Of a DNA stretch of 64,000 nt, positions 22,085-64,000 are shown piece after piece. Within the stretch, counting starts at the first letter, position 1. Each line of letters starts with the position of its first letter. The stretch lies in the NCBI RefSeq assembly GCF_037975245.1, contig NC_092577.1, forward strand, positions 11,846,013 to 11,910,012, read 5' to 3'. The position numbers and the translations under genes were made by a program. Origin of the DNA: Apostichopus japonicus. Lineage: Eukaryota; Echinodermata; Holothuroidea; Aspidochirotida; Stichopodidae. The notes under the pieces were generated by a model. That model ran no database searches. It was not told where the DNA came from and saw nothing but the letters and a program-made list of their open reading frames with translations.

Positions 22085-22485
22085 TAGTTACTACTAGACC
22101 GTACGTGTAAAGCTTACACGAAGTATTTTTTGCAAGTTTGTCCTCCCTTTTCTTTTCTATCGATGTCAGACATCAAACGTTCTCGTCTACTGGCCGGTCT
22201 TCCTGACTGTACTGTACCATTCGGCCATCCTGAGTGTACTCTACCATGGAACCTCTATCGCGACGATCGACGTCTGCACCACATAACATGTAGATGAACT
22301 CGTTCTTGTCTGTGCAGACACTGTGAGGAATCCAGTCGCATTAATGGAGGTATGGTTTAGTGAATTCATACAGAGATAGCAAAAGCCACATCGATTACAT
22401 ATAGCTGATTAAACATGTGACCGTATATCAGATCATCAGTAAGTACATACACATCTCTTCTGTTAGTACCAACAATAGTATCTTT
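22085..22485 (-). pseudogene. TRIM-like propeller fragment
   Basis: Carries the C-terminal propeller codons of the family, including the equivalent of TNRRDVYVLTDDLIYGH. About 110 bp is missing near 22372, where paralogues encode MEESESKLMYEF. A duplicated stretch near 22185-22235 breaks the frame. There is no RING, B-box or coiled coil. Its sister is the fragment at 34850-35480. Confidence 0.75.
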
Positions 22486-30987: not shown

Positions 30988-32928
30988 TAATTTCTATCGT
31001 AAAGATCTCAAACAAAGGTTGGTGTCAAAACGAATGTGCTTCAAAACAAAATAACTGCAACATCTTTTTCTTGTATGAATAACCGGTGTCGCGTTTAACA
31101 TGATGCTATACTGTACGCTGTGTATATGCAAGTATAGTACAATAAAATACGGCCTGTAGCGACGTATTACAAAATAATCACCGAGGTCACGATCTGTAGA
31201 AGTTATCAACATAGAATTCCTGCGAAAACTAAAGAACGTGCCACGGAACAATGATTTTTCATAGTCAATTTACCGATTGTGTGAGAATTTTCACGTTTCG
31301 TCGACGTGTTACATTTTCATTTCAGTTTTCAAAGGTAATATTCTGTAAAGTATTATTGGTTAATATTTAAGAAGGGAACAGTTTATGATTTTAAAGCAAA
31401 TCTGCTGTGTACCAATTTTCTCCAGTTGAACATTTGCAGCAAAAAAATGGGTTTGCCTACTTTGCATAATTTCGGACAAAATTGCCAAATAAATACCATT
31501 TCCCGTAATGCTTTAAAGCTTCACGATGTTGCATATAACATTATAATTCTGCTTAGTTTTTGGGGGTGGGGGTTGTGGGGTTACGGTTCATTCGGGGGAT
31601 TTTCGCATCTCGGCCTGGGAAGAATTGGACTATACTACTACGTATTTACCTTCCCTCCAACCTCCCTTTGAAGCCTCAAAGTATGTATTAGCAAAACGAT
31701 GCCTTCAGGGCTACTTCTATTGACATAATTTTTAGTCTAAATATACCTCAGAATGCACCGTTTGACGTTTAAATTTCCATTTTCTTTCAGGATGAAAGGA
31801 GGGGTAAGGTGGAGGGGTTGAGGGGAAATTTAAAGTTGCTTTCATAATCATTCGGGGAATTTGAGTTGATTTTCATTTATTTAGCTCAATCTTGCCTCAG
31901 AATGCACCGTTTGACGTTAGGAACTGAATCAATTTCTTCCAAAAACGTTCATCCCTATACCCGAAACAGTCGAGGGAATTTGTATTCCTCCCTCCTAACT
32001 TCCCACCTTTGAAATCCTGTCCACGCCACTGTACTAAGCGAGCCTCATCTTGTTTTCTTGAGGTCATCAAATGAAAAGCTTAGCTTACAATGTTAGATTA
32101 ATGTTGCTCACGTTTTGAAAAAAAACCTTGGATGGTGCAGATGTTACATAGGTCACCTCTCTTAGCGCCTTGCCCCTTTTCACTAAGTCCATCTTCAACA
32201 ACAATCAGGGACGTGCATATTTCAGCCCAGAGTTTGGACAATATACACCTACAACATTCTATCTTTACTACATGGAATGGTTGCCCACAGCTTTTTTAAT
32301 GTGGCTCGTACTGAGAAGATGTCCCAAATAAACTTTAAGACATTTCAAAACATTTCCAAAATGTCCGTACCTGTTGTATCAATCAACCAGAACAAACTGA
32401 ATAACTTTATTCTAATACACACCTGACGATAATCACACAGTGACAGTCTCGTTGCAATGGGACTGACGTTGAAAACGGATCAGTCGTTTACTTGTTTGAT
32501 TTTTCGTGCCCAGGTTCTTTTTGAGTGACTTTTCTTCTAACGCTTTTGATGCTGCATGTAAGCAGGAAGTTCGGTTTTCGGTTGATTCTTTTTATAACGC
32601 GGTAATTTTAAAGATCACCAGTATTGCCCTTAAAATATGCAAGAAACTCAAATAATTTTCCACGTTTCTGTATTGTATTGCCTCTGTAAAATAGATACCC
32701 ATCCTGAAATATTGAATCATTTGTTAATCATATCAAAATAGCTAGGAAACATTTAGAGGATCAAAGCCTCTTGAGAAAGTACTTTTAAAACCTTCTACTT
32801 AATTTTGAGTTTGCCCAAATTTATGGACAATACTGATAACTTTAAATAATTTACAAAGGAAAATCCAGTTTGAAGTTAAATATAAGAATATGCTCATGTG
32901 TCCCATCTTCTGGGAGATTGTTTGTTTG

Positions 32929-32929
<1 letters not shown>
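30988..32929. other. Spacer upstream of copy D, no gene seen
   Basis: The first 1.6 kb matches 19458-20980 and parts of 43410-44270. It includes a G-rich stretch near 31560-31580. From about 32600 to 32929 the sequence is AT-rich and unmatched in the window. Confidence 0.4.

Positions 32930-32981
<52 letters not shown>
32930..32981. repeat. (TA)n microsatellite, left of the Penelope element
   Basis: About 26 uninterrupted AT units directly abutting the truncated 5' end of the retroelement. Confidence 0.95.
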
Positions 32982-32984
<3 letters not shown>

Positions 32985-33821
32985 ACGGGATATCTTAGTT
33001 CGAGCATCCTTTCGGGATGACACCCCATTAGGGGAAAGCAAAACAGAAACTACAGGATCATCGCCCTGTACACAAAATTGCAAAACGTGCTTACTTGTCG
33101 ATTCGACCGGGGCCTTTCAGAGCAACCAAACCAAACGCACGTTCCAAATTCGGCACAAAATTAACTGCCTATCCAAAAAAGTCATTTACCTCATCTACTG
33201 CAATATTTGTAACTTACAATACATTGGAGAGTCAAAAAACACTCTTAGAATGAGAATGACACAACATAGATCGGCGATCAAAACAAAAAAGATCTACCAA
33301 CCTGTTGCAAAACACTTCAATCTTCAAAATCATTCAATTGAGAATTTGCGTGTTATTGCCATTGACCAGAACGATTCTTGGACAGATAAATCTAGGAAAG
33401 CGAAAGAAAATTTCTGGGAACTAAACCTAAAGACCACGGCACCATTCGGTTTAAACATCAGAAACGATTTGCCGTTCCAGATAAACCAAAACAATTCCTT
33501 TACAATTACGACGGAATCGGATTAAAATAATCCGACGCGGATTAAAATAATCCGAATTTCTAAAACTTCTGAACAGAAATCAGTAAGTCGCTTTGCCCTT
33601 ACAACCATGCCGACATCTCCTCTATAAAACAGTTTCATTTCCTGCTACTCCTTGTCACTTTCGGTGATCATGCACTGAAGAAGATTTAGTTTTGCTCGAA
33701 AGCTCTGCAAAAACCAAACATTGGCTGTTTTACTTCCAATCACTTACCTAATTCAATTATTGTATCTCACTCGAGATCCAGCTTTTCTCTAAATGCAGCA
33801 TAGTTGTTTAACAGTTTTCCG

Positions 33822-33826: not shown

Positions 33827-33887
<61 letters not shown>
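33827..33887. repeat. (TA)n microsatellite, right of the Penelope element
   Basis: About 30 TA units with one C interruption, running directly into the TRIM fragment at 33888. Confidence 0.95.
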
Positions 33888-34085
33888 TTACTCTGTGATT
33901 CCTCCATGGTGACTGCATATGGTCTATCACATGAGTTGCTACAGACCAGGAGACTACGTCTATGTACAGTGATATCATGCGATGCATCAATACAATCTAG
34001 TAGATGCGAACATGTGACTCTAAATGTCGATTTCATATCTCCAACTAGCTGTCATAATTTTAAGCTCAGATAACAGACAGCAGTA
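33888..34085 (-). pseudogene. TRIM-like propeller fragment
   Basis: Matches the propeller codons around 38770-38910 of copy E (A-Y-A-V-T-M-E-E-S and neighbours). It then skips about 170 bp and resumes at the SEFKVIT region near 34050. The left end is cut by the (TA)n array. It is non-functional. Confidence 0.7.
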
Positions 34086-34099
34086 ACGTCAACGTTTGG

Positions 34100-34116
34100 T
34101 GACGTCATTGACGTCA
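34100..34116. promoter_or_regulatory. Two consensus CRE palindromes in tandem
   Basis: TGACGTCA at 34100-34107 and again at 34109-34116, one base apart. This is the consensus CREB/ATF site. No promoter is evident beside it, so function is uncertain and chance is possible. Confidence 0.3.
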
Positions 34117-34427
34117 TTTTACACCTTTCCCAATCAAACCACTTCACTGAGTGAAAAACACTCCACAAACATCATTGTTGAACAAGTAATTTCACCTAAT
34201 TACCCAAATCACCATAGACTATTTTGGAGCTGAGGTTGAAACATTAAGTGCGTCTTTGCGTGTGTTTCTTAATATTCTGAAACCTATAAGCCACCCAGAC
34301 ATACCCGATTATTCACAATGAATGCAGGTGCATTAGTCTTACGCAGATCACGCATTATTTTTGGTTATTTTGGTTCGATCGTTTCGAAGAAGACAATCTG
34401 TGTTATTATTTTTTAAATACGAACAAC

Positions 34428-34849
34428 AAAGTATCCTCGCAAACATTTTCAATAAGATTAAAAAGTGTGATCTATTATTCGTTACAACAACCATTTACTA
34501 TTCAAAATAAAGTAGGTTCATATCCTAATTTCCTGACAGGAGATATAATACCTCAACCTGTCATTAATAGAAAACATAATAAAACAACAAATGGAATATT
34601 ACATATCTGATTCTACAGACAGACGTCACATCTTAAGAGTAATAAAGAGGATGGTCGTGTCTGAGGAGACTAGTAATCATGAATAATGCTTCACATATAC
34701 AGAACAGAGCAGAAAGTGTCATTGAAGGCAGAAGTGTAAAGCTAAATATAATGAGATATCCTTAAATCAGTGTTGATGTCACTTTATGAATACAGGTGGA
34801 ATCATTCATTCCATTATATGCTCAACAGAGCTACGTCTTAGTTACTACT
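34428..34849. repeat. Recent duplicate of 21677-22084
   Basis: The partner copy of the non-coding block at 21677, same orientation, about 12.75 kb away. Confidence 0.75.
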
Positions 34850-35480
34850 AGACCGTACGTGTAAAGCTTCCACGAAGTATTTGTTGCAAGTTTTTCCGCC
34901 CTATTCTTTTCTAGTGATGTCACACATCAAACGTTCTCGTCTACTGGTCTTCCTGATAGTACCTGTCGGCCATCCTGACTGTACTGTACCAGAATACCTC
35001 TATCGCGACGATCGACGTCTGCATCACATAACATGTAGATGAACTCGTTCTTGTCTCTGCAGACACTGTGAGGAATCCAGTCGCATCGGCAGAGATATGG
35101 TTTAGTGAATCCATACTTTAGCTTACTCTCTGATTCCATGGTGACCGTATATGCTCTATCACTACCGTTGCATCAGACAGTGAGATAACCTCTATGTAAA
35201 GTGATAGCAAAAGCCACATCGAATACATACAGCTGATTAAAGATGTGACTGTACTTCAGATCATCAGTAAGCACATACACGTTTCTTCTGTTAGTACCGA
35301 CAATAATATGATTATTCACATGATCAGTAGTTACACAACTCACGTACCGATCATATGGCCACCTTTTAATGACGTTACGAATGTTCTTCTTGCTATATGC
35401 ACATCACGTACATCGTAAATGCCGATGTCAGGCTTACAAACTCATCTAACTTTGACCTCTGATAAAGAACAGCAGTAACT
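34850..35480 (-). pseudogene. TRIM-like propeller fragment
   Basis: Covers roughly the last 200 codons of the propeller, from the SEFKV region to the end, with several frameshifts; the longest clean piece is 34927-35139. It is the sister of the fragment at 22085-22485 but lacks that fragment's 110-bp deletion. No RING, B-box or coiled coil is attached. Confidence 0.75.
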
Positions 35481-38493: not shown

Positions 38494-40678
38494 CTACGTC
38501 ACTACTAGACCGTATGTGTACAGCATTCTTGAAGCCGATGTTGCTAATAAAAGTTTTTCCGTCCCATCCTTTTCTAGCGTTGCCAAACAGTGAGCGTCAT
38601 CAGGTACTTTTCTTTTCAATAACTGTCGACCATCCTGACTGTATTGTACCAGCATACATCTCTCCTCATATGAACTCCATAACATGTATATGAAATCGTT
38701 CTTGTCTGTACAGACACTGTAAGAACTCCAGTCGCATCCTTCGAGATCTGGTTTGGTGAATGTATACATTAGTTTACTCTCTGATTCCTCCATGGTGACT
38801 GCATATGCTTTACCACTATTGTAGCAACAGACAAGGAGATTACCTCTATGCACAGTGATATCAAAAGCTCCATCGATTACATCTGGTAGGGTAATCTTGT
38901 GACTGTAAATTAACTGATCAGTAAATATATAAACATCTCTGCTGTTTGTACCGACAATAATATGATTCTTCACAGGATCAGTAGTTACACAACTCACGTA
39001 CTGATCAGATGGCCACCTAGTAATGACATCACGAATATTCTTCTTGCTATATGCACCATCACGTACATCGTAAATGCCGATGTTGTCAGACTTACCAACA
39101 GTTATAACTTTGAACTCTGATAACAGGCAGCAGCGACGATATACATTGAAAATGCCCCTATCATTCTTGAGCTTATTCTGCAGTTGTATTTCTCCTTTCA
39201 TGTTGACCACAGTGATGTGCGAGTACCCTTTAAGTGCCCTACCAGTTATGACGATATTGCCAACTCCGCTGCTTGTAATACCATTGATCCACCAACGTTT
39301 AGCTTTGATTTCTGCAACAACAACAACTGACTCTTCATACTGAGCAATCATGACGTTGTCTTTAAAAACATCAGTTAAATCACTGATAAAGAAATCAGAT
39401 AAAGATTCTAACTCTGGATATTCTTTTCCAATTTCTTCTATGAGAGGTTCACATGCTGCTCTAATATCAGGGATACACTGAGCGTATGTCCAATCGTCTT
39501 GAGAAGCAAGAATAGATGAGGTCGTTGCTGTAAAGTTCTCGTAAAGTTTGATAATCGTGTCACAATAATCTGACATTTCTTTCAGCTCATCTTTATTTGT
39601 TTTTAAACGCAAATCTTTGATTGTTATTAAATCCTTTAAGCAGACATTTAAGCTATCAAGTTTGCTAATGAGTGCTTGCTCAGTTTTATCACATTTCTGA
39701 TTAAATTCTTCGTAATCGTCGTCATATTGTCTTTTCACTTTTTTCCTAATTTTATCATATTTCTCTCTTACTTGGTTTAATTCCTCTTCTAAAGTAATGG
39801 TAATCTGATCGTCTTGATCTCTTCCTCTGCTTTCTATATCCTTTAAGCCTCTGTTTCGTACTTCCGTACATTCGTCAAGTTTATCATTAATCTTCTTCGT
39901 CTGTTTCTTGTGCTGATCTATCAACTTTTGTGTCTTTTTCTCGGCATTTTCGTTTAGCTTCTGCGTCGCAGTTTCAATTTTGTTTGGTAAGTCGTATAGT
40001 TTGTCTCTGTGCTTGTTTAGTTCCGCAAGTTTTGGTTTCAAAACTTTTCTTTCACGTTTTGCTAGTTCAGATACGTCTTGTAGGTCATGACCTTTGTGTT
40101 TACTATATATACAGACTATGCATGCTGGTACATGTCGGCAAGTACAGCAACATAGCTGTGCCTCTTTTTTTCATGTGTATATGGCACTTGGGATCTTCCG
40201 TAAGTGTCGATAGTTTTTCCAGTGTAAGGTTCCTGGCCACAACATTATCCAATTTCAAAATGTGAGTTTGGTGATCTGTAAACATTTTACTTTTCACGTG
40301 AACCATGTAACATGGATCACATAAGAAGTCTCTACACTTAAAGCAGTATGCAAACACTTTTGTATTTTCCGAACAACTCACACATTGTTTTACATTTTCA
40401 TTTTCAAACAAGTTTTGCAAATTTACAAACTCAAGCATACTCTTCATATGAAAGTCAGTCTTGAAATCATCTACCCCATCTTCTGGTATGACATAATCCT
40501 GTTGACATAATGGACATTTAACCGTCCCATCTTGGCTGGCTTGAATAACTCTTTTTAAGCAATCCCTGCAATATCGATGAAGACATGGTAACAGCTTAGG
40601 TTCTTTAAACTGATTTAAACAAACAGAACACAGAAAGAAGTTCTCTGTCAGGTCTCTGAGAGGAGTTGCCGAGGCCAT
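38494..40678 (-). pseudogene. TRIM-like gene copy E with one frameshift in a T-run
   Basis: The RING (same eight ligands as B), first B-box and the start of the second B-box are read from the ATG at 40678 in one frame. The rest of B-box 2, the coiled coil and the whole propeller are read in a second frame down to the stop at 38494. The shift falls in a run of T near 40164-40171: seven T here, six T in the same codons of copy C (about 17020). Apart from this single extra base the gene looks complete, with total length 728 codons plus one base. As written it would give about 190 residues with a RING and one full B-box. A sequencing or assembly error in the homopolymer is a real alternative. The frame also extends upstream to 40726, but the start is set by homology. 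Confidence 0.9.
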
Positions 40679-42143
40679 AGTCTGAATCACGGGATTCTGT
40701 ATCAAATAATATAAAAATTTACACATCAGTGATGTAATTTTCCTATTCTAATCAAATTATTATCGAGCGTTTAAATTTGCCAAGGACTTTACGTTAAGGG
40801 AAACATTTAAACTCGTTTTTTTTTCTCTTGTTTTATTATGCTTAAAGTAATTTGTTTGAAACTCAGTTCTTTCATGGATACAAATAATTTTCTTTTAGCC
40901 AAAACTGTCAGCACCTTAAGTTTAAGAATAACCACCCTGCACCTGTCCACGGGGATCTTTATAACACAGATCATGTGTACGTCGTTGTGGAAGACTTTAA
41001 GATGTCATTTGTAAACAAAAATTGTTATATGTTTTGTGGATGGATAGATATTGACGGCACGAAACAACTTTGTGTGACAATTTTAATAGAGTGATCTGCT
41101 TTATGATAGCATAAAACTAACATCATTTGTAAATGAAGTTGCAAGGAGATTATTGTCAGTTTTAAAAGGGATTTAGGGTCTGATGGTCATTGGGAAACAT
41201 CATCAGTCTTTACGAATCGCGAAGCTTTTCAATTCTTATGACATTATTTCCCCAGTTTCTCTTTGCTATTCAAAATACTTCCTTTCAGGATGAGGACAAA
41301 TAATGGGTACCAAGGCATTATAGACAGTTTATTCTTAAATAACATTATCCAAATTTCAGTTCATTCTCAATGTTATTTTGCTACCAATGGTGAATGTTTT
41401 TTTTGACGATGTTATGTTATTTTTACTACAACAAGTTATATTCAACCTTCAACATTTAATACAGATATATAATAATACTTTTCACTTACTTTCATTTTTG
41501 TAAATTGCTAAGTATTTGAGTTGATGCAAATCTTGCTTTGATTTTATTGATCACGTATTTATTGTACATAAACCCTACAGCAGACTGGCTATACCCGTCA
41601 AATGAAGAATCATGCACTGCCCCGTGTACTTAGTTGTGATTTCCCTCGTAAAACATTTGATTTTATTCAACCCTTCAATATGTCTTCAACCAGATAAATG
41701 TGAGGTAAGATTAGCCTAGAATACTTCAACGTTTGTTTCAATTATGTTTCGAAATGAAAGTTTGCCCACCTATGATCAACACAAGAAAGGTGCTTAAATT
41801 CAAATTTGGACTTATACTGTTTCAATTTTCAATAGTTACTAGATTCATTCAGTTGAGATTCTATTAGAAATCAATGATTTTCAATGCATCAAATTGCAGA
41901 AAGCTGTTCCGCACCATCATAATTGAAATGTTTTAGTATGACAGCTGCAGGCACTACAAACAGGAACCCTAGTCTAGTAAATTCCATAACGCGCTACAGT
42001 ATAGTAAACGGCCGTTACAATGGAACCCAACGTACAGACTCCCAATGAGGATCTACTTGCTAGCAAGTGCATATATCGAACGATTTCTGTTTCATGGCAA
42101 TGAAAGACATTAGAAAATATATTGGAGTGAATGCTCACTTACC
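40679..42143 (-). other. 5'-UTR remnant and inferred intron of TRIM copy E (intron 40697-42142)
   Basis: The acceptor ATACAG ends at 40697 and the donor AAG|GTAAGTGA has its last exon base at 42143, both on the minus strand. At 1446 bp it is the shortest intron of the series, because a long block between about 41300 and 41450 is missing relative to B and D. No coding sequence was seen. Confidence 0.6.
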
Positions 42144-44274: not shown

Positions 44275-45612
44275 AGATAACAGACGGCAGTAACTCTAAT
44301 GTAAGTTGATCATGCTCTTATCAGTATTGAACCGATCCTGTCGTTGTGTTTCACATTTTCTGTTGACCAGAGGGATGTGTAAGTACTCTTACGTTGTATT
44401 TTGAGTTATAACAGTCTGGTCATCTCCTCTGCTTGTAATACAAGTGAAATATCTACCGCATTGATTCCTGCAAAATCAACCACTGACTCTTTATGTTGAG
44501 CACTCGTAATGATGTCAGTAAACCCTTGTTACATCACTGATAACGTAAATCAGATAAATATTTTAAGCTTGGATATTCTTTTTGCATTCTTCTATCAGAG
44601 GTTCAAATAAGTCTTTATATCAGGGATACACTGAGCGTCTGTCCTTATAAGCTAGAATATATGAGTTCGTTGCTGTGAAGTGTTCGTACCTTTTAAGATC
44701 CTGTTCGCAATATTTTGTTATTTGTTTTAGTTCTTCAGTTCCATTACAAGCTGGTCTTTTGCTGTAATCAAATTTTGCTGTTGTCAAAAATAAAGAGTAT
44801 TTTTATTTTAGTAGTTAGCATCTAGAGTTCCAAGGTTTCTACAGAGTGCGCCCTCAGTTTCATCACATTTGTTTATAAACTCTTCAGACTTGTTGTCATA
44901 TTCTTGGTTTGCTGTTTTCCTGATTTTATCCCATTTTTTCTCACTTGGCTCAATTTCCCTTCCATATTAAGAGTTATCTGACCGTCGTTATCTCGTCTTC
45001 CGATTCTCTTCTTCTGATTTCATCTGAACCTCGTTTTCGTTCCGTAGTGCAATCCGCAAGTTTATCTTTAATCTTTTTTACCTGCTGCTTATGCTAATTT
45101 ATCAATCTTTCTTTTTTTTATGGCATTTTCATTCAGCTTTTGTGTATCTGTTTGTATATTCGTCGTATACTTTAACTTTGTATTTGATTAGTTCAGCAAG
45201 TTCTTGTTTCAGTAATTTTCTTTCACGTTCCGCTATTCCAGTGACGTATGTAGGTCATGACCTTTTGCTTATGATAAGTACACGTTTTGCACACTGGTAC
45301 AATACCGCAAGAACTGCAGCATGATTGTGCTCCTTTTGTTTGGCATGTGCATAGCACCTGGGATATTCCGTTACTGATAAATTTATCCAGAGTCAAATTA
45401 TTTGCTTCTCATTTGTCCAATCTTAGAATGTGGGTATGTGATATCTACACGTTTAACTGATGATGTGAACCTTGAAACATTGCACACACAAGTAATCTCT
45501 GCACTAAAAACAATCAGCTAAAACTTCTGTATTCTTGAAACAGCCTACACATTTTTGGATATTCAAAATACTTTTGCAATTGACCGAACATATGAAAGTC
45601 AGTCTTGATACA
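44275..45612 (-). pseudogene. Decayed TRIM-like relic (copy F)
   Basis: Homology starts in the middle of the propeller (the SEFKV region) and runs through the coiled coil and both B-boxes, ending just after the codons before B-box 1 (near 45610). The last 200 or so codons and the RING are absent. There are many frameshifts and small indels, and no ORF above about 75 residues survives. It is far more diverged than copies B to E and G and so represents an older duplicate. A solo LTR lies 180 bp beyond its end. Confidence 0.8.
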
Positions 45613-46876: not shown

Positions 46877-48175
46877 ATAGTTCGTTATGCTCATACAGAC
46901 TGCTCTTCTGGTCACCTGAAGCTTCTGTCGTCTTTCCTTACATAGTTAAACGTTTTATCAAGTAATCACACTTTTGTTCTATTTTCCCTCTAATACTAGC
47001 AGAAGCAGCTTTAAAATGCTTTAACATGCATTCTACGTTGAAATGAAAATGTCGTCCAAAGTGACAGACCTATAGCTTGTCACGCGATGGCTTAACAATT
47101 CAATATAATTAGATTCTTACCCTGTAATTCACACAAATTGCTTATTTTAACGCAAGTCGGCTGCAGTTATTTGTTATTTGGAATGCATCACGATGAGCGT
47201 GTTTTTACTTTACCCCTATCATATATTAAACTCTATCATGATTTCTATCTGCGCAAGATTGTTGCACTACTCAAATTGCCGCAAAATCAATACTTGACAT
47301 TTAAAGCTCGAACTTATACCAATTATATTTTTACTTCTTAACCTATTCCAACGTGGTTATTCTTTTCTTGACTTAAATCACAACATCCTACTTCCATTAA
47401 CATTCATAATGAAGAATATTCAAAAAGGCAAGGGAATTGTTTCTGTGATTGAGAAGACAACTGAAAGAGGAACAATAACGATGATGCGTTTGCTTTCTTA
47501 TGTATTGGGTTCGATACTAACAAATGAACGGTCGTGTCGACATCATACACATGACAGTGGTAGTGAGGTGACCGTTATTGAATTTGTGACACTGCAATGA
47601 TTGTCTGACAAAATATCCATCCATTCAACATTTATTCCAATATAGCGCCATCAATTACGACTGTCATATCCAAGTAGGACTATCTGCTGATACATCCTCA
47701 AGGGTGATTCTAAAATACATAAAAATGGATGTAGTTAACTGCCTTGTTCTGTCTATATTTGCTTTGGAAAACAACACAATAAAACCATATTTTGATTTTA
47801 TTTTCAATGTGATAAATAGTCACTTAATGCATTTAAAAGTGAACGGAAGAAACAAGAGATAAGCTTAATATTTCCATTTGCTAGTATAGATTCTCAAATT
47901 AATACATCAATTTATGTTACGATTTTCGTAGAAACCTCTAATGAAAACAAGGATTATTGCGAAAAACTTACTTATGATCAATGAAAGGCATACTTTTTTT
48001 CAATGACACAACACTCCATATACCATAACGTCCTTTTTCGTAGTGTCGGAGGCAGTCGTGGTGCAAGTACAACGTTATGATGGGATTTTTAGGTCGTAAC
48101 ATCTCCACTCCTCATACCAACAACCGTTATCCTATACGCAATTTCTTACATAATTCACACTCATTTCGCCTTGAT
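46877..48175. other. Spacer, no gene seen
   Basis: AT-rich with only short random-looking ORFs. I see no repeat or gene signature. Confidence 0.4.
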
Positions 48176-48337
48176 CCGTCCGTCCGTCCGTCCGTCCGTC
48201 CGTCCGTCCGTCCGTCCGTCCGTCCGTCCGTCCGTCCGTCCGTCCGTCCGTCCGTCCGTCCGTCCGTCCGTCCGTCCGTCCGTCCGTCCGTCCGTCCGTC
48301 CGTCCGTCTATCTATCTATATATCTATCTATCTATCA
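48176..48337. repeat. (CCGT)n followed by (ATCT)n microsatellite
   Basis: About 33 uninterrupted CCGT units (48176-48308), then ATCT/TATC units with one slip (48309-48337). It is read as PSVR repeats in all plus frames, which is not a real protein. It abuts the 3' end of the antisense LINE at 48338. Confidence 0.95.
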
Positions 48338-51275: not shown

Positions 51276-52606
51276 CTACGTGATATTGACATTTAGACCG
51301 TACGTGTACAGCTTCCCGGAAGTATATGTTGCAAGTACAAGTTTTTCCGACCAATCTTCTTCTAATGATGTCACACAGCGAACGTTCTCATCTACTGTTC
51401 TTGTTGTGAGTAAATGTCGGCCATCCTGACTGTACTGTACCAGGATACCTCTCTCAAAAAGACCACTGTCATCAACCCATAACATGTAGATGAATTCGTT
51501 TTTGTCTGTGCAGACACTGTGAAGACTCCAGTCGTATCCATCGTGATCTGGTTTGGTGAATTCATACATCAGCTTACTCTCTGATTCCTCCATGGTGACT
51601 GCATATGCTCTATCACTACCGTTGCAACAGACAAGGAGACAACCTCTATGTACAGTGATGTCAAAAGCCCCATCGATGACATCTGGTAGGGTTAACATGT
51701 GACTGTAATTCAACTGATCAGTAAATACATACACATCTCTGCTATTAGTACCGACAATAATATGACTCGTCACAGGATCAGTAGTTACACAACTCACGTA
51801 CTGATCAGATGGCCACCTAGTAATGACGTCACAAATGTTCTTCTTGCTAAATGCACCATCACGTACATCGTAAATTCCGATGTCAGACTTACAAGCTGTT
51901 ATAACTTTGAACTCTGATAAAGGACAGCAATAACACCATACAAAGTACTTGCTCGTATCATTCTTGATCTGATCCTGCCGTTGTATTTCTCCTTTCCTGT
52001 TGACCACAGTGATGTGCGAGTACCATTTAGATGCCCTACCAGTTATGACGATATTGCCATCTCCGCTGCTTGTAATACCTTTGATTGACCAAACTTTAGC
52101 TTTGATTCCTGCAATATCAACAACTGACTCTTCATGCTGAGCAAGCGTGACGTTGTCTTTGAAATCAGATAAATATTCTAACTCTGTATTTTCCTTTATC
52201 ATTTCTTCTATTAGAGGTTCACATGCTGCTCTAATATCAGGAATACACTGAGCGTGTGTCCAATCGTCCTTAGAAGCAAGAATAGATGAGGTCGTTGCTG
52301 TAAAGTTCTCGTATCGTTTGATAATCGTGTCACAATAATCTGACATTTCTTTCAGCTCATCTTTATTTTTTTTTACACGCAAATCTTTGGTTGTTATTAA
52401 ATCCCTTAAGCATACATTTAAGCTTTCAAGTTTGCTAATGAATGTGCTCTCAGTTTGATCACATTTCTGATTAAACTCTTCGTATGCGGTGTCATATTGT
52501 CTTTTCACATTTTTCCTGATTTTATCATATTTTTCTCTAACTTGGTTTAATTCCTCTTCTAAATTAATGGTAATCTGATCGCATTTATCTTTTCCTCCTC
52601 TCTCTA
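51276..52606 (-). pseudogene. TRIM-like gene copy G, 3' half only, split by a CACTA transposon
   Basis: An open frame covers the second half of the coiled coil and the whole propeller to the stop at 51276. It runs past the first usable start codon (52508) up to 52606 without interruption. At 52606/52607 homology to the paralogues stops in the codons that read I-E-S-R-R-R elsewhere, and CACTGTAAAAA begins. The RING, B-boxes and first half of the coiled coil should lie on the far side of the element, beyond 64000. Eight codons (FISDITDV in copies B and D) are cleanly deleted between SDF and KDN, near 52165. No other defect is visible in the 440 or so codons present, so the insertion is probably fairly young. 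Confidence 0.9.
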
Positions 52607-52619
52607 CACTGTAAAAACT
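52607..52619. repeat. Left terminus of the CACTA-like element
   Basis: CACTGTAAAAACT marks the exact base at which TRIM homology ends. The reverse complement is expected at the other end, outside the window. Confidence 0.7.
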
Positions 52620-52644
52620 AAAAGGGTTTATTTACCCCAAAATA

Positions 52645-53345
52645 GGGTAAATGTAAATCCTGCATGTGGACACAAAGTATGGGTATTTATAACCACATTT
52701 AGATGTGCATTTACCCTTTATTGTGTCGCTATGCAGGATTTACATTTACCCACTATTTGGTTTCTTTTACACAATTTAGGTGTGAATTTACCCATTATTG
52801 TGTTGCTATGCAGGATTTACATTTACCCACTTTTTGGTTACTTTTACACAATTTATTTGTAAGTTTACCCTTTATTGTGTTGCTATGCAGGATTTACATT
52901 TACCCACTATTTGGTTACTTTAACACAATTTAGGTGTGAATTTACCCATATTTGTGTTGCTATGCAGGATTTACATTTACCCACTATTTGGTTACTTTAA
53001 CACAATTTAGGTGTGAATTTACCCATATTTGTGTTGCTATGCAGGATTTACATTTACCCACTATTTGGTTACTTTAACACAATTTAGGTGTCGATTTACC
53101 CATATTTGTGTTGCTATGCAGGATTTACATTTACCCACTATTTGGTTACTTTAACACAACTTAGGTGTGAATTTGCCCATATTTGTGTTGCTATGCAGGA
53201 TTTACATTTACCCACTATTTGGTTACTTTGACACAATTTAGGTGTCAATTTACCATTATTTGAGTTGCTAAGCAAGACTCACATTTACCCACTATTTGGT
53301 TACTTTTAAACAATATAGGTGTAAATTTATGTCTTAGTTGTGTTG
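52645..53345. repeat. Subterminal 77-bp minisatellite with TTTACCC motifs
   Basis: The motif ATGCAGGATTTACATT recurs at 52731, 52808, 52885, 52962, 53039, 53116 and 53193, with a degenerate eighth copy at 53270; the spacing is exactly 77 bp throughout. Each unit carries two TTTACCC-type words. A single perfect inverted copy of the 21-base core lies at 52645-52665, before the array. Such subterminal repeats are binding sites for the accessory protein in plant CACTA elements; the same role here is inferred. Confidence 0.9.
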
Positions 53346-55503
53346 ATGTGTGGGATTATTCCATTAGATCTTTTGGTACTATTATGCTTAAGATGTACAA
53401 CTACCTCTTTGATGCTGCTGCACATAATTTACAATTATATTAAAGGTATTCTGTATTGGCCCAAAATTATAGCATGCTATAATTGCTAGATGTTTTCAAA
53501 GAATACTTTCCTGGAGGTCACTACCCTCCAATGGTTCACAGACATTCTACATTGAGCACACAAGATGACTGAATGTCTCAGTGAGAAAAATTTCCTCAAG
53601 AGTGGTAATAAAAACAGTTCAGAATTTTAAGCAAAGATGACCATATTTGGCCAACACAGCATACCTTCATTGGGCTACATAACACAATGCAATTTAATTG
53701 TGCAGATTCTTGAATTAATATAATGGGTAAGAATGTTAAATTAGGAGAAAACTAGAAACTTCAAACATGAATACTACACTGCATAAACGTGATATGAATA
53801 ATCAATGCAATAGCATGTTTATATCAATCTAGGAATATTCATGCATAATGTACAATATGGTGAAGCAACACTTAAAGTTGGTAACATATGTGTATACTAG
53901 TAAAACCTTGACTAAAAAATGTTACATTTACTAATGTATGATCACATTTTCTCAACAATTAGAAACTGCCACAACCCATTACTAGGCATGTCAGGTATTA
54001 AACCATGTAACAATTTTCATTTACATCGATGAATACATTTGTAAAATTAAGGTGTGCCAATCTTTTAACATTAACATAAATCTCTATTGACCACAAATAT
54101 TACTTTCAGGTTGTCTGTTATGATTATGCTGTATCACTGTCACCTTAAAAATCTGGTATCACTCAAAAAGTGCATTACTTTGGCATAACATTGGTAAAAA
54201 AGACCATAACTCCCACTTTTATAAAATGGCTCAGCAAAAAATTGAGAAACTTGGAGAATATTGGGATAAACAATAATAACTTACTAATAAAAACAATTTG
54301 TATGTAAACAACTAACTTTGCAAATCAATGCAGGTACATCAACATGCTTTTGTTTATGATCAAACCCATCAGTTCTCACTGACCATGAATGTTGCATCAA
54401 CACAATAATGGTTTACATGATAAGACCTGTATGTTACTAAGTTGTAAATTAATAACTCTAAAACATACCTTAACTCTAATGTATGATTAATTATACAGTT
54501 CTTAGTGCTTTAACATTTCATGTTGATTTATCTTGAATACAACAGTACACTCAAAAAGTTGCATTAGAGTGGTGCATGTTTATGTGCACCACCCCCACCC
54601 CACCAACCAAATTTTGTTGTGACAGAACAAGCCACAATATATGGAACTTTCTTGTCACTGATCTAATTGTTCCAGCAATTGTCTCCATGATTTTATTTAT
54701 ATGTGCATCAAGCATTACAAAGATTATCGATAACAACTTCCTGGTCTTGGTATAAATTGACAAAAACAAAATCAAATCGAGCAAAGATAGGGTGATGCTT
54801 AAGTTTAGGCCTATGATTGTGAATGATCACCATTAACCATCTGTGTTGAGTGTAACCGAGGCTAACTGAAGAAGACTAGCATACAATTAGTCTACACTAA
54901 GCTTGCTTCAACTAGGCTGAACGTTAAACCTTAATCACTATACCCCTCTATGTTTATTGTAGACCCCACAATTTATCACAAAATATTACTGTACACAATT
55001 TGCTATTCTTAATGCTCATCAATCTTGGTTTGAATGTATAAAAAATTTACTGGCTTAGATAATTTGCTTAATATCAACTAATTGCTGTTTGGCCTTCTTA
55101 TTACACCCAGTTCTAATTGTATTAACAGCTTATTATTGACTTTACTATATGACACCTTTTATAAAGTTGCATTAGTGTTCCAACTAAATTTTCGCCCCCA
55201 ACTTTGCTCTTCGTCATAACAAGGCATGTCACAGCACTTCAAACTTGTAGTTGCCCCTGATCTCACTGTTTCACCAATATTGTAATGTTTAGTATTATAT
55301 ATCATTTAAGTGTATTAAGAATTACCCAAATTATCATTTTACACATTATTTGTCTTGTAAAATTGTGCTAACAAACTAAATCCCTGAAAACAACACTATG
55401 CAAATCCAGCAAACAATCTGAAAAACATAACTAACAATAATTCTGGGTCAACAAATAACAGAAAAACAATAGAACTTGAAGAAAAGTCACAAAATGAAAT
55501 AAA
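53346..55503. other. Non-coding interior of the CACTA-like element
   Basis: AT-rich, no exon-like signal on either strand, lies between the array and the last exon of the accessory gene. It probably contains that gene's 3'-UTR. Confidence 0.45.
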
Positions 55504-58500
55504 TCATGCTTGAAGTTTTGCAATTAATGAAATGATCTTTTGAGGCAATTTCCCCTTGTCTTTGCATTGCAGCAGACCATTTTGCAGAAATGTCAGTGTT
55601 CCTTTTACTTTGCCGTTATACTGTATGTTGAAAACATAATATGTTGCCAGCAGGATTAGAACTGCCTCAGGGAAAGATGCTGCAGTACTGCATTTTTCGT
55701 TTTCTGCAATGATTGTTATGTTTGATGGGTCCAGCGGATCCCCAGTGTATGTTATGACCGGTGTGCTGATTTCAACATCCGAGCTAACCTATCAAACAAT
55801 GAAATAAATAGGATGATTTATTCCTGATAACACATTTTCAAAGGTAATCCAGCTTCTTCAGAATCACATACACTAAACTTGCATTTGATAATATTACTTG
55901 GGAGCTGATTTGAATAAGCATCATTTCTAGCTATAAATGAATATTGCGAATGTTTCTATAACTCAGGGTATATATAAACCAGAATGTCAAATAACTTAGT
56001 GATTCCTTGCCATTATGAAGCAACATTAGATGGCATATTTTCCAACTTCCACCGTGCTGACCTGATATCACCAGAAGTGCCATTGGCCTTAGAGTATCGA
56101 ATAATAGGTGCCTATATAAGAAGATTGAATTTGAAACCAACTATCATTTCTTCAGCGATCAACTTTATTAAGACTTGGCTCTAATTGAAGACAAGTGAAC
56201 TGTGACCTCCATACAAAACATTCGGGATTTGCTACTTACCAAATGCTACCTAAATTCAATTCATGATATGTGGTGGTAATTAAAGGGTTCAGGTTTTCAT
56301 GTTTGTTGACCTCAAATGACCTCTGACCACAATCAAAAACAGGAAGAACCACCTACTCACCAAGGGTTACCTTGTGTTATCTTTTAATTCAAAGAAAAAA
56401 TAGGGATCATCTGCTCACCAGGGCTATCTACATATTACTCTTGAAGTGCAAACCATCTTTCACTTCTTGAGGTATAGTGTTTACAAACCGAGGCCTCACA
56501 CACACCTCGATCAGCATTGCATAGATTTCTTTGGCCTTAGAAGGGTTATCGACATATTACTCTTTACATCTTTTGCAAGTTTACAAATAATACACCAACT
56601 AATGAAAGGGTTATTAAAATGGGAAGCTTACATCATCATCACTGTTTTATAAACAGAAAGTTGCGATCTTCTTTCAGGAAGCCAGGTAGTATCCAGAGAG
56701 CTGCGGTCCATGTAGCATCTGTAGCAGAAATAAACACTGAAGTTATTGTCTTCATTCAGTGTAAATGAATGTAAAATGTAACACAACAGTAAACAATTTC
56801 ATGCTGATTTCCTGAAAATAACATAATGATTTAGTAAGTTGATGTAGTGTATCAATGCAGTTTTATCTCTGCACTCTTAAAAATAACTACATTGAAGTGT
56901 TCCTTAATTAATGTTTTATTGCAGGATTCAGTAAACCATCTAATTCATCCAATGACGACACTGTTGCTACTTTGCCTCATATGGTCACAACTTGTCTCCT
57001 TGCTCAGATTATCCTGTATATATGAAACAGGATTGGCCACATTTTTCTTCATTATCTTGAAAGACCTTGGATTTTTTTTTAAGTTTTCAAACATCTGCCA
57101 TCAGTTTAACTAATTTATATTTTAAGAAGCTGACAAAATGCTTGTCTCAACTGAAACTGTTAAGACATATCTCCTAGTCTACATAATAGTAAACTTTCTT
57201 ATTATTTTTGGTAATTAACTCAGCACTTTGAGATGTTAACTTACCCCTTTTGTCTTTTTCTGTCAATTGCTGAATAAAGTTGTTGTATTCAACAAGGAAT
57301 CGAAGAGTGCCCTTTGAGTGATTTGTGTTGTAGGTGATGATCTTTGCTGCAATGTCATCAAGATTTTTGTAGAACATCTCCGACACTGCATCCCAACTGA
57401 TGATGGCTGAAAAATCTTCTATGATCTATGAATTAAGGTAATAAAAAGGATGATAATGACATTGTATTAATAAATAACTTTCAAACAGGAACTTTCAGCC
57501 AAGTATTCGTGTTAGATCATTAAGTCAGTAAAAGAATCTTGTTTTGGCAGTTATTCATGATTTTCTTCAGTCAAACCTCTATTTTAGTAGAAATTCTAAA
57601 CATTCAAATACTCTTACATATCATCCATGGTATTTAGATTCACCTACTTTTTTGAAAATCCCTGTCAAAGCTAACAATGTGTTTCTTCCATGGTAAATAA
57701 AACAGCTATGATTAGCTCACTTGGCAGGTTAATTTGTGGCAAAATGCACTCATGACCCTTTTCCTTGAACTTTGTCTACCTCAAATGATTCTTGAACTAA
57801 AAAAGGTAGGAATCATCTACTAACCAAATGCAATCAACATTCTAAGGGATTTTTAAGAAGCCAGTAACTGACAATTTTAACACTTATTGCACTGTGTTTC
57901 ATGAATATCAGCTATGATTTAAGGAAGCTTCCCTTCCTGAGAAATCCTGAGAGCAAGCTATGCAGCATGAACACAAGTTCATTCACCCTTACATACACAA
58001 GCCTTAACATTGGCTTATGATTTCGTCAAACCAACAATTTCCAGTGTAGAACATTATAATCATAAGTCTTAATAATTAGGAATCATATGTTTGAAATTAC
58101 CTGTTCTGCACAAAATAGAGTAGGAAATTTGCCTCTGATTTCTGCTATTGGTGGTTTCTCCTCAAGTACAAGTCTCCTTCTCTCTCCAAATGTCAGTGCC
58201 ATTAATGACTTAATTTTGTTCTTGTCTTGTTTTTTCTTTGTTGATTCCTTTTGTAGTTCCTTAATGTGCAGTTTGATAGTCTCCTCTGTTTCACCCTCAG
58301 GTAGAGTCCAATCAGCTCCGTCTTTTCGTTCTCCCTCGTCAGTTGTTGCATGTGTAGATGTCTTCCTCTTCTTCACAACTACATCCCTCGTCATGTGTCT
58401 CCTCTCATTTCTGAACTTATCTTTGAGTGCATTTTTCAATGCATCCTACAAAACCAAGATGCAAAAATGAATGGAAGCTGCAGTATGATGAGATAATCTG

Positions 58501-61500
58501 ATATCAATGTTACATATTCTGTTAAAATACCTTTCTTCAGTCTGGACTTGTAATTTAAAGAGCTATGAAATTGTGATGAACACTTGAACACAAAGTATAT
58601 TGTAATTTTGTTACAAGGTCTTAAAAACAGCTGAACAATTCAAATTAAACTTCAACACTATTGTTAGGTATAAAACTCGGCAACCTCACAATGTAATTTA
58701 TGCACATGTTTCATCATGTCACCTCACCCATTTTAAAGAGTAGACACCTTGATCTTACAAGCATGCACATCTGGACATTCATGTCAGATGCATGCACAAT
58801 GTGTACTGGTTCATGCATCTTCTCAGGTAGGCCAGTAAATTATATGAATATGTATGTATACATATATGTCACAGGAGGGGGCTAATGTGCAAACATCTGC
58901 ATGTATACAAGACCCCAGACTACAATATCCCCCCCTCCCCCACCCACCCTGTGCTGCAGCAGTTCAACCCTTGCATCCACCCAGTTAAGTTCCCTCAAAC
59001 TGAAAAGTACTTTTACAAACCAACAGCAAAATTAATCTATAGTGGATGTAAGATTTTGCCCTTGAAATGGCAGGAGAAACAATCTAGTTTTGAATGCCCC
59101 ATCATTTGATGTCTTTATTAAAAAGATCCAGCTGTACATAGTTCTTCACTAGCACCAGCTACTGGATATAAAAATGGCTTTTGACAATTAAGCAAATACA
59201 GTGAAAATAGTCTCCTGTCTACCTGAAAAGCACCAATTTGACTGATACCATTAGTAGTGGTAGTTTTGTACAAAGTAGTCGAAATTACACAATCTAGTCA
59301 GGTGCTTTTTATATGTACATATACGCCCACCTTCTAGATAATAAATGAAGAGCTTAATCATATACTTACATAAGGCTCACAGAATGGTAATTTGATTGCC
59401 AAGTTTGGAAAGGACTTTATGACTGCTTTAGCTGCTGTATTGTATTGATCTGTAGTAGGATACCTACAAAAAAGAATATCACTTTATAGTTGATTCACAT
59501 ACAGGGTTAGTGCCAGCTGTAAAATTTAGGAGGGGGGGGGGGCAATTACCCACTTAACCAACTCTTTTTGGGGGGATTTAGTATATTGGGGGAGCCTTTT
59601 TAAAATGTGGAGTGAAAGGAAAAGATGGTACTGTCTGGGGCTCCAAAAGCTCCAGTTTTTAACCTTCATATCAGCAGGACAGGGCTTGGTTGGGTGAGAC
59701 TCATACAGGCCCAATGATCTCCCATAATAGAAATTTCTTATGTTACGGGATACTGCGGACCATCTCTATAGTGGTCTCTTGTATCATTCTTGAAGATATA
59801 TTGTCTAAATTGTTTTGTTTTTACTATGTAATTCTTAATTCCTTGTTTTAGTCTGATGTTGATCTGGGATTGAAATAAACCTTACACACACAAACACCAA
59901 AAATTACATTTTTAAAATAATATCAACAACTTATTTTGCAACTTAATAATAACAGTGAAAAGTTCACCCATTTACCCACTAACCATCAAGTCCTGCTTGT
60001 ACTAAGTACCTTACCTAGCACCCCCATTCCCCCCAGACAGGCTGAGTCAGCTAAAAGGCTATGATTTTATATTTGAGGTCGCTGTCTGAGCTTGTTTGTT
60101 TTGGTAATGTGGATATCCCCATCTGAAGTTAAAATATCAACAGAACTTTAACAAAGTTGTAACCACATCATTCCAAGGTTCCACAATATTAAAATCTGTA
60201 GGTTATTGACACATGACGTCTTTATATGCAAAAAATCAAATGCGAAAATACAGGCTTCCAAAGGTGTTATTGTTCCAGGTTAAATAACACCACAATTTCA
60301 AAGATGGCATACTTACACATTGACATATTTCAAAGCTAGTAATTCTGAGATGTTGAAAAGTCAAGATTCCAAAGACTTGTGCATTATGCATGCGTATGAC
60401 ATTTGAAGGCAAAAATTTACACTGGTTTAGCATTAGTGATTGAAAAGACAAAATATTAATATTCAAATAGGGAAAGGTACTTACACAGTAAACAAACACA
60501 TTTTGTCAAATGTAGCTTGGATTACAGCAGATTTAATTCTGTTGCTGACAGGTCCCCCTTTTAATAGTTCTACCAAGATGTCTCTCCTAACATCATCTTG
60601 ATGCAGCTCAAACTTGTTTGGCCATGGCAAGAACTTTTCTTCTTCATGAAAACTATCAAGCATGCAAAAAGGGTAAACAAAACTTTATTAGCAAAATGTA
60701 TAGAATTAGCACTTTCAATAAAGTGACCCTAAACAAATTTTACATGAACAATACAGATTATACTTTGACACAGGTTGAACAGCTTGATTTTCACTACTTC
60801 AGCTGTAAGTTGTTGAACATGCATGTCAGTACTTAGCAAAATGTGACTTCATATTAAATGGCCTCTTCAAATAAGGGGCCTTGTACTGAACTTCTTTAGG
60901 GAATGTGTGGGACTTACTGTTAACCAACCAAGTTCCACCAACCCCCCACCCCCCATACCCTATTATATTGTAGTGATAGCTTAAAGAGAAAATGCAGTCA
61001 CCCTGATTTGAATTAGTATACTGTAGTATAATATTTCTATTATGGCTCTTCCTACTCATGTGACAATGTTTTTGTTACTGAATTGTTGAATTCATGCACC
61101 ATAACTCTTAGATTTGTCTTTTATATGCAATATTTATGTTCTAAAATGCCATAAAATATAATTGTAAGGTCAGCACCAGAAATTTGCAAGGTTTAGCTGA
61201 TATTGCAAATTAGTTTGGGGCAACTGCTTATTCCCTTAAATAAGCTCTTTTTTGCTTCTGTCAAGGTAGGATAATAATTCAAACATGAAATGTTACATGT
61301 CTTACCTGTCTGAAACATCACTGGTACAAGGTACATCTCTTTCATTTCCAGCCAATATAATGGTGTCATCTGAACTTGAAGAGCTTGTAAATGAACTGGC
61401 ACTGAGGCATGCAACTGACAAAGGAAAGGAGTGTCCAAAATATGTATTATAAATTATTTTTCTAATTTGCAAAACCCCAGGATGTAAAGATTAAATATGT

Positions 61501-62284
61501 GTTGCTCATAAGTACAAGAAACAAAATAACTGGATTTGCATTGCAATTTGCTACTTACTATTAAATCTTCAACTGCTAACCAATTTGATATTGATTAGCA
61601 CTTTCATTAGACAGTAATGCTTTTTGATTGATATTGCAAACTGTAAACTGTTACAATGAAAATTTGAAGTAGTATTCAACTTTGGCATACCAATTTGTCC
61701 CTTGCAGAATACCTTCAGACTGTGATAATTTCTTATCTTAAAGCTTCCCTGAAATTTCAAATATGAATACTATAGTGACTTCCTCCTGTCAAATATCCCA
61801 AAACTTTCCACTACTGTAGGGGGAAAGCCATGAGGAGAGGTTATGACAATGTACATACATTCATACAAGAATGTTTTATGTGCATATATTATCCTTGGAA
61901 CTACCCAAGTACCAATAAGTTCCAAATGGGGTTCACACATCATATTATGCCAATAAGGCTCCTTCATGAAATGGTAATAAACATGCTGCTGATAGGCAAA
62001 TTTTTCTGGACAACAATCTTTTTGCAATCGTGTACAAGAAGCATTTATACTTACCTTCATCTCTTTCACCAATCACATTCAGTTTAACTGCTTTATCTTC
62101 CATCTGCTCTTCTTCTATATCACCGTCAATGTCCACCCAGTCGTCAAAGTCTTTATCAAAGACCTGAAGCCGAAATTTCTTTATCCCAAATTGAGATTTG
62201 ATTTCTGGTTCTACATCACTTGCACTACATAAGAAAACCCTTTTTCTGGATCCATAAGTTACATGGTACCGTTTAAGTGCTTCA
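55504..62284 (-). CDS. Spliced transposon accessory gene, SAMD3-like (5' exon missing)
   Basis: Eight exons read in phase on the minus strand: 62055-62284, 61306-61414, 60485-60652, 59370-59463, 58101-58445, 57245-57425, 56643-56718 and 55504-55783 (TGA at 55504-55506). All but one donor match GTAAG or GTAA; the donor of the seventh exon (GTGATG at 56642) is weak and was chosen because it keeps the frame. The first exon encodes a PB1-like ubiquitin-fold stretch (TYGSRKRVFLC ... LQVFDKDFDDWVDI). Exons three and four contain FLPWPNKFELHQDDVRRDIL and YPTTDQYNTAAKAVIKSFP. Exon five ends with PPIAEIRGKFPTLF, and the last holds FPEAVLILLATYYVFNIQY. This order is that of the proteins named SAMD3-like in animal genomes. 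About 490 residues are covered; the start codon lies in an upstream exon I could not place. The likely role is binding the element's subterminal repeats or aiding transposition. Confidence 0.7.
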
Positions 62285-62392
62285 CTGAAGACACAAATAT
62301 ATAGAAACTAAAAAGTTGTTTCTTCTAACCTTTGAAGTTCAAAGTAACAATGATAAGGAATGAGATGCTCTATTTTAAGTATTAATGTTTCT

Positions 62393-64000
62393 CTAAACAA
62401 AGTACTTAAGTGTTACCATTCTCTGATTTTGATTTGTGTAAATTGATAAGGGTAAATGACAAGCAAAATCTTCATAAGCAAATATGACCCATTTTTGTTG
62501 AAAACACAATACATAGCTATGGAAATGTTGACTGTAACCAATAGTGCGCAAAACCATCAAAACAAAATACACTTTACCACCTTTGATAAAGATTGCATCT
62601 ATTTTGCCAAATTCATGCAACCTATTTTCTCTTGCCTCTAGAACCATGCAACAACCTTTTGCATACAATGAACTGTGTAATTCAACAAAAGCTAATGTAT
62701 GCACTTCTTCAATGCTTGGAAATTGACTTTTCAAAGCTCTCTGAATCCCATCACAAAACTGATGTAACTTTTGAATGTCCCCTCCTGAGTTGGATGTCAT
62801 TTTGTCATCCAAAAAATTCTGACCAGCTCCATAATAGCACATAAGTAATTGATGACGCCTTGCCAATGTCTTACACAAATTCCGCCTGTTTTTCTGCCTA
62901 TTGGCAATTTCTTTGAAATATGCATGTTTAGCTTCAAACCTCATTGTCCAGCAGTGAACAAGAGGTCCATATTTCAATATTGAACGAGGGTAATGCAATA
63001 AGTAATGACTTTTGGGTTTAATTCTATCTTCAGGAAAGAGCTCTTTCAGAGCAACCAGAAATCCATGCACCAAATATTCCAAGTATGCAACCATTTCACA
63101 TGGTATAGAGGGAGCAAATGTAATTTCACAAATATCCATAAGTGACAAAAATAGTTCCCAGTATTCATTTCCCTCTGGAATTGAGCTTCCTATGATTAAA
63201 GGCAATAATCTCATCAGGCACCATGTTTGAGATGCTGTTTGTTTGATTTTGAAACTTCCCAGGTTAGCAGTGGTATTGCAAGTTGGTTTGCTTTTCTGAT
63301 CACTTTTTCCAAAGGGAAAAAGTTTCAAAGCACTGTTAAAAGATTCCAAAGTGAAAAAGCCATCCTGAATAAATGTTGTCACAACCTTCGTCATTAATTC
63401 TGGAACAAGTCCTTCGAGCAAATCATGAGCTGGATCAGGTGGTAGACAACTGATTACATCAAAGTATTGCAAATCTGACAAAACAGATTTAGAAGCTACT
63501 CCATAAACATGCCTAAGACCTTGATTTTCCATAACTAACTGCACCTGATGTTTGTGACCAACACTTGTTCTTTCGATTAAACTGGATGAATCAAAATGAT
63601 CTTGAATGTCATTACTACTTGCCATGCAAAATCTACATATTCTACCAGCATGAAAATGTTGCTGAAAGCCTCCTAACTGATGTGCTGCCAAGTTATCCAT
63701 GGAAACCAAACTAATGCAACCCTTGAATGTAAACTCCTCCTGGTTTAAAGTTGTTATTGTCACCCCCTTACTTTCTAAGACTTTAACATCCTCAAGAAGC
63801 GGTTTGAGCACTTTCCCAAAGCCATACTGTTTTATTAATCTTGTACAGCAGAGGCAAACAAGCTGAATTGATGACAATTTTGACCGAAACTTTGGGGATA
63901 AATTTCCAAGAACAAAATAAAATGCAGCAACTTTGTAGCTGTTAGCTTTATTTCTAAGTGGGTTCACCACACCAAAATCATCATAATAAAAATGAACTTG
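62393..64000 (-). CDS. tnp2-like transposase of the CACTA-like element (N-terminus beyond the edge)
   Basis: The frame is open from the right edge to the stop at 62393, about 535 residues. It shows the motif series of animal tnp2-related transposases: YYDDFGVVNPL (63960-63990), LGNLSPKFRSKLSSIQL, DNLAAHQLGGF followed by a cysteine pair (CRFC), LPPDPAHDLLEGLVPEL, and near the C-terminal third HYPRSILKYGPL with WTMRFEAKHAYFK. The acidic residues in DDFG, DPAHD and FEAKH are candidates for the DDE catalytic triad; I cannot assign them with certainty. The enzyme would cut the CACTG ends and move the element. No stop or frameshift was seen, so this copy may be active or recently active. The distance to the accessory gene's first visible exon is only 108 bp, so the two transcripts may overlap or be alternatively spliced. 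Confidence 0.75.
   Translation of the reverse strand, partial: QVHFYYDDFGVVNPLRNKANSYKVAAFYFVLGNLSPKFRSKLSSIQLVCLCCTRLIKQYGFGKVLKPLLEDVKVLESKGVTITTLNQEEFTFKGCISLVSMDNLAAHQLGGFQQHFHAGRICRFCMASSNDIQDHFDSSSLIERTSVGHKHQVQLVMENQGLRHVYGVASKSVLSDLQYFDVISCLPPDPAHDLLEGLVPELMTKVVTTFIQDGFFTLESFNSALKLFPFGKSDQKSKPTCNTTANLGSFKIKQTASQTWCLMRLLPLIIGSSIPEGNEYWELFLSLMDICEITFAPSIPCEMVAYLEYLVHGFLVALKELFPEDRIKPKSHYLLHYPRSILKYGPLVHCWTMRFEAKHAYFKEIANRQKNRRNLCKTLARRHQLLMCYYGAGQNFLDDKMTSNSGGDIQKLHQFCDGIQRALKSQFPSIEEVHTLAFVELHSSLYAKGCCMVLEARENRLHEFGKIDAIFIKGGKVYFVLMVLRTIGYSQHFHSYVLCFQQKWVIFAYEDFACHLPLSIYTNQNQRMVTLKYFV

Follow-up and report, generated by a model that had tools for sequence, protein, structure and literature searches.

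A large CACTA-like transposon within the coding exon of a TRIM-type gene of the sea cucumber Apostichopus japonicus

A TRIM-type gene of Apostichopus japonicus (copy G of a tandem cluster) is split midway along its single long exon by a 15,247-bp CACTA-like DNA transposon; the boundaries of the element, the duplication at its target site, the reading frame restored by joining its flanks, its copy number and the near-identity of its copies can all be read directly from the assembly. The arrangement as a whole is very probably best explained by a recent cut-and-paste insertion into an intact gene. On this reading, a complete element would have entered a TA in the exon and duplicated it, presumably in a reaction catalysed by its family's own transposase, and the gene would since then make at most a 285-residue fragment (281 TRIM residues, four further residues and a stop). 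The element would belong to the CACTA/EnSpm-Mirage-Chapaev group, most likely to CACTA/EnSpm itself, and its family would have undergone a recent expansion to about 22 near-identical copies. Given how young the insertion appears to be, an uninterrupted allele probably still segregates. Disruption of a gene by a transposon is a well-known type of event and the kind of transposon is known, and the case appears to be a clear young knockout of a single gene. Its value lies in a precise, roughly datable natural knockout within a large tandem TRIM-type cluster. The CACTA-like animal family behind it is large, many of its transposase frames are intact and its copies are almost identical. These features make tests for the empty allele and for mobility straightforward.

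The interrupted exon and its two joints

The stretch of DNA that was analysed (the window, 64,000 nucleotides) corresponds to G000:C17:11846013-11910012, positions to the right of it are numbered from L009:1 (equal to 64001), and the assembly that was searched comprises 671,581,487 bases in 35 contigs. The 3' half of copy G, delimited by alignment to four paralogues (A, B, C, and E), is the coding exon downstream of the insertion and occupies 51276..52606 on the minus strand (442 residues and a stop); its open frame, 51276-52631, continues into the element. With all four paralogues as queries the left alignment ends exactly at 52606, so that the break and the start of the element at 52607 stand where the preliminary description had placed them, and same-strand alignment restarts at 67854 (L009:3854), the left and right alignments overlapping by two query bases at the joint. 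The RING/B-box half of the gene, which had been predicted beyond the window in the same orientation, follows directly after L009:3853, and its alignment reaches L009:4705 for A, B, and C and 4766 for E, because the E query begins further upstream. Identity between copy G and the four paralogues is 79-85% in the 3' half and 91-92% in the 5' half. The Pfam scan was run on paralogue C, to which the 5' half of G aligns at 91% DNA identity, and it found a RING above the cut-off (zf-C3HC4, E 1.5e-11) and a possible B-box, matched in two stretches at 17.3 bits and so below the cut-off of 24.1 (zf-B_box, E 0.0053); a coiled coil is presumed from composition.

The flanks at the two joints read CTCTCTA, element, TATGTCC, and TA alone is duplicated (left copy 52605..52606, right copy L009:3854-3855). 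The 3-bp CTA duplication that had been expected is thereby ruled out, TA being found instead both at this site and in all 12 young copies of the family read at both ends. When the element and one TA are removed, the joined flanks give 726 residues of open frame (723 from the first Met), and the rebuilt 36-base site differs from A and E by 6 substitutions and from C by 8, with no indel, and from B by 6 substitutions and 2 deletions in a fuzzy match. A misassembly that set a repeat beside half a gene at 52606 is conceivable insofar as some 22 near-identical element copies could mislead an assembler and two copies on the same contig (C7:7.12 Mb and C7:11.12 Mb) share identical 1-kb flanks; however, the two exon halves, the two termini and the 2-bp duplication agree base for base, the joined frame stays open, and 14 substitutions are private to the element in copy G among the 11 copies aligned. 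A false join is not expected to yield fitting halves, termini, duplication and private substitutions, which makes this reading barely credible. A second allele of the locus was not found in the assembly, where the 3' half, apart from its own locus, reaches no more than 85% among the matches listed.

It is also unlikely, if less so, that the gene was already dead and that the element landed in a pseudogene. Cluster copies B and E do have frame breaks, gene fragments lie nearby, and copy G has a private deletion, but the joined G frame holds no stop in 726 residues and the deletion keeps the frame. That deletion had been described as a single clean loss of 8 codons; in a MAFFT alignment to A, B, C, and E it is indeed in frame, yet it spans 9 codons and is accompanied elsewhere by a single-codon loss and a single-codon gain. 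The dN/dS values of copy G against its paralogues (A-G 0.59, C-G 0.45) are similar to that between A and C (0.56), which is consistent with earlier constraint on copy G and with the preferred reading of an insertion into an intact gene.

Termini, transposase and class of the element

The element extends from 52607 to L009:3853 (G000:C17:11913865), with 52607..64000 (plus strand) inside the window. It starts with CACTGTAAAAACT, the sole exact copy of this 13-mer on either strand of the window; with up to two mismatches there are 9 window matches against 4.58 expected, a number reached in 4 of 100 shuffles. The short terminal motif by itself would not be striking; the case rests on the interruption of the gene, on the opposite terminus and on the further copies of the element. 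At the left end, the terminal inverted repeat CACTGTAAAAACTAAAAGGGT (52607..52627, plus strand) is an imperfect inverse of the right end, whose reverse complement is CACTCTAAAAAATAAACGGGT. A search to the right of 52000 for the reverse-complemented 13-mer gave no match when at most one mismatch was allowed, and two mismatches brought up the true right end; an inverted terminus is thus present at the end of the element, as foreseen, but it is not the exact inverse that had been anticipated. The termini (CACTGTAAAAACT / CACTCTAAAAAAT) combine a CAC(T) start with short inverted repeats, as in CACTA/EnSpm elements, and the 24 terminal bases are identical in all 12 young copies for which both ends were read. 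Subterminal repeats, a further feature of these elements, occur at the left end, where a tandem-repeat scan within the window found an array of 8.2 copies of a 77-bp unit (52697..53329, plus strand); when the terminal 1.5 kb of the left and right ends were compared, the shared matches were all of 20 bp or less, with E 0.28 or worse. Asymmetric subterminal repeats are known in the soybean element Tgmt* (PMC2613891).

The transposase is a single 872-residue frame running from 62396 to L009:1011 on the minus strand, which is also that of the TRIM gene; the 535 residues inside the window (62396..64000) include all of the putative catalytic motifs. A Pfam search with an 843-residue sequence returned Transposase_21 (tnp2) alone, at E 6.8e-4 and 19.3 bits, below the cut-off of 28.6, and the match covers residues 297-436, including D315 and D410. 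The putative catalytic layout, assigned by eye on one sequence (P0001 numbering), is D315, D410, CX2C at 430 (20 residues after D410), HX3H at 640 and E664 (20 residues after the last H of HX3H). A D-D-C(2)C-H(3-4)H-E layout is described for the CACTA/EnSpm-Mirage-Chapaev group (PMC12730594), and because the putative layout matches this description, the motif layout of the transposase places the element in that group. Other comparisons of the transposase gave little. Solved structures returned one meaningless match (E 0.91) and none that was credible, NCBIfam nothing credible, and the structure model (mean pLDDT 33.9) was too poor for use or for a structural search. Relatives at 32-41% identity occur elsewhere in the genome, many with open frames; the loci compared for transposase relatives were copies of the same family only, none divergent enough for a conservation test.

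Within the group, the element is likely to be an EnSpm/CACTA element in the narrow sense. The CACTA-type identity proposed from the first terminus is supported by the termini, the 2-bp duplication, the motif layout and the subterminal array, although the Tnp2 match is below the cut-off. All 13 copies whose two ends were read, two of them sharing one site, have a target duplication of 2 bp, which falls within the 2-3 bp of CACTA/EnSpm elements, and animal CACTA elements with 2-bp duplications are in print (PMC1636069, PMC6004678). Membership of ESTA instead of EnSpm, suggested by the preference of the element for TA together with its weak Tnp2 match below the cut-off, is rather improbable but deserves some weight. 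ESTA takes its name from TA duplications, described in fungi (PMC12730594); here TA is duplicated at each of the 11 independent young insertion sites with both ends read, and the C(2)C and H(3-4)H motifs are common to both. Conversely, the Tnp2 match region holds both D315 and D410, 2-bp duplications are also on record for animal CACTA elements (PMC6004678, PMC1636069), and TA is not used without exception, since TG stands on both sides of an older copy and CA on the right of one young copy. ESTA, as described in PMC12730594, is fungal and accompanied by a TET/JBP gene; no TET/JBP domain was named by Pfam in five scanned element frames or the 843-residue transposase.

Among known elements, ENS1_Cis, a CACTA element of the tunicate Ciona savignyi (PMC6004678), resembles the likely CACTA/EnSpm element described here in its 5'-CAC..GTG-3' ends and in a 2-bp target duplication in an invertebrate. 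Similarly, SmTRC1 and other animal TRC elements are CACTA-related and carry a Transposase_21 domain, and SmTRC1 has 2-bp direct repeats beside its ends in 7 of 14 copies; unlike the present element, with its short and imperfect repeats, TRC ends start with CCC and SmTRC1 has a perfect 54-bp inverted repeat (PMC1636069). Tgmt*, a 20.5-kb CACTA element in soybean F3'H, is likewise large, putatively autonomous and within a gene, and has short imperfect terminal repeats and subterminal repeats, but it is a plant element inserted in an intron with a 3-bp duplication (ATA) (PMC2613891). No earlier report of the family was found in a limited literature search.

Five small frames of the element were traced across copies, and four of these were scanned with Pfam, none reaching the cut-off. 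A 120-residue frame at 61948..62307 (minus strand), a possible further exon, is stop-free over its whole length in 12 of 12 young copies examined and was not found in the older copy on C6. Another 120-residue frame at 58086..58445 (minus strand), possibly a further exon or a second protein, is present in 11 of 12 young copies examined, being absent from the shorter C7:7.29 Mb copy and from the older C6 copy. Neither of the two has a Pfam family at the cut-off or an NCBIfam family at E 1. A comparison with viral contigs gave no match.

Copies, age and a segregating allele

The left 456 bases of the element match at least 22 places in the genome at 97% or more, and the right 500 bases have 34 matches, of which at least 22 stand at 96% or more; pairing of the two by position gives 22 copies, these counts being lower bounds. 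Twenty copies measure about 13.9-16.4 kb, one about 19.9 kb and one 22.1 kb, and their ends are 96-100% alike. The other 12 right-end matches (83-95%, partly incomplete) appear to be older relics. Thirteen copies were read at both ends, comprising 12 young copies and an older one on C6. TA stands on both sides in 12 of 12 young copies, which count as 11 independent sites because the C7:7.12 Mb and C7:11.12 Mb copies have identical flanks, and TG stands on both sides of the older copy. The young copy at C16:30.9 Mb has CA on the right, its left side being known only from the start of the match, and in the other nine young copies the left-end match extends through TA in 8 of 9, the exception being C7:3.53 Mb. 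The base after TA is G or C at 10 of 11 independent sites, the copy in TRIM G (T) being the exception.

The copies at C7:7117577-7134828 and C7:11118831-11136004 differ at a single one of 15,174 aligned sites and agree completely over 1 kb of flank to the left and to the right; the pair would reflect either a segment duplicated recently or a single locus entered twice in the assembly. The 22-kb copy (C7:18457859-18481936) has roughly 7 kb of extra sequence towards its right end.

Disruption of exons does not appear to be a habit of the family, since among the 12 young copies only the joined flanks of the TRIM G copy restore a long frame (583 residues with 900 bp on each side), compared with 37-154 residues in the 11 other young copies and 106 in the older C6 copy (1 kb on each side).

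Age was considered in a full-length alignment of 11 of the 22 young copies (the TRIM G copy and ten others), in which differences from the TRIM G copy range from 27 of 13,892 to 97 of 14,828 aligned sites. None of the 14 private substitutions of the TRIM G copy falls in the transposase frame, and its tip branch is 0.0010. The small number of private substitutions supports a very young insertion, in agreement with the youth first proposed from the well-preserved half gene; part of these changes may go back to a source copy outside the alignment. Heterozygosity in A. japonicus is given as 1.59% by k-mers and about 0.73% by mapping (PMC5638244), several times above the tip branch; on that basis an allele without the insertion should, and probably does, still segregate.

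Consequences for the gene and its surroundings

From the ATG, the interrupted gene encodes 281 TRIM codons, followed by HSKK and an in-frame TAA contributed by the terminal repeat, and, unless this stop is avoided, the expected product is a fragment of no more than 285 residues that includes the RING and B-box region. The stop could be avoided if the element were spliced from the TRIM transcript like an intron and the gene still worked. The element end on the TRIM strand, TTTTTACAG followed by TG, resembles a 3' splice site; when 955 AG sites were crudely scored, it ranked 5th (tied in score with the 6th). On the other hand, the TAA occupies element bases 13-15 with no GT upstream of it in the element, which means that an internal donor cannot avoid the stop, and by simple arithmetic the best-scoring early donors also shift the frame. 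Judged on donors within the element, intron-like removal therefore seems highly unlikely, and truncation is the expected outcome.

The transposase frame is full length and stop-free in 16 of the 22 copies (868-872 residues, one match starting from residue 2), whereas one copy carries a single TAG and five are broken, so that present activity of the transposase would be no more than a possibility. Since the frame lies on the TRIM strand and the end of the element resembles a 3' splice site, transposase-TRIM fusion transcripts are possible, and if produced they would give the orphaned C-terminal half of TRIM a new promoter and start. A broader proposal, that this is a still-mobile animal CACTA-type element with a target preference near TA-G/C, which creates segregating knockouts and may also make such fusions, is speculative and, on the present sequence, improbable.

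The interrupted gene belongs to a TRIM cluster at C17:11069574-11986752, which contains the window and holds at least 45 matches to the G 3' half over about 0.92 Mb on both strands; 40 of 198 candidates were scored, and some matches are pieces of one copy. Other damaged or partial TRIM copies lie in the window at 15367-17541, 38494-40747, 22087-22481, 33887-35479 and 44306-45563; copies B and E are frame-broken, and other pieces are 68-83% alike to the queries. A 238-residue open frame occurs at 32809-33525, which by eye we take to resemble the GIY-YIG endonuclease end of a retroelement, and a perfect TCCG tandem array of 33.5 copies occupies 48175-48308.
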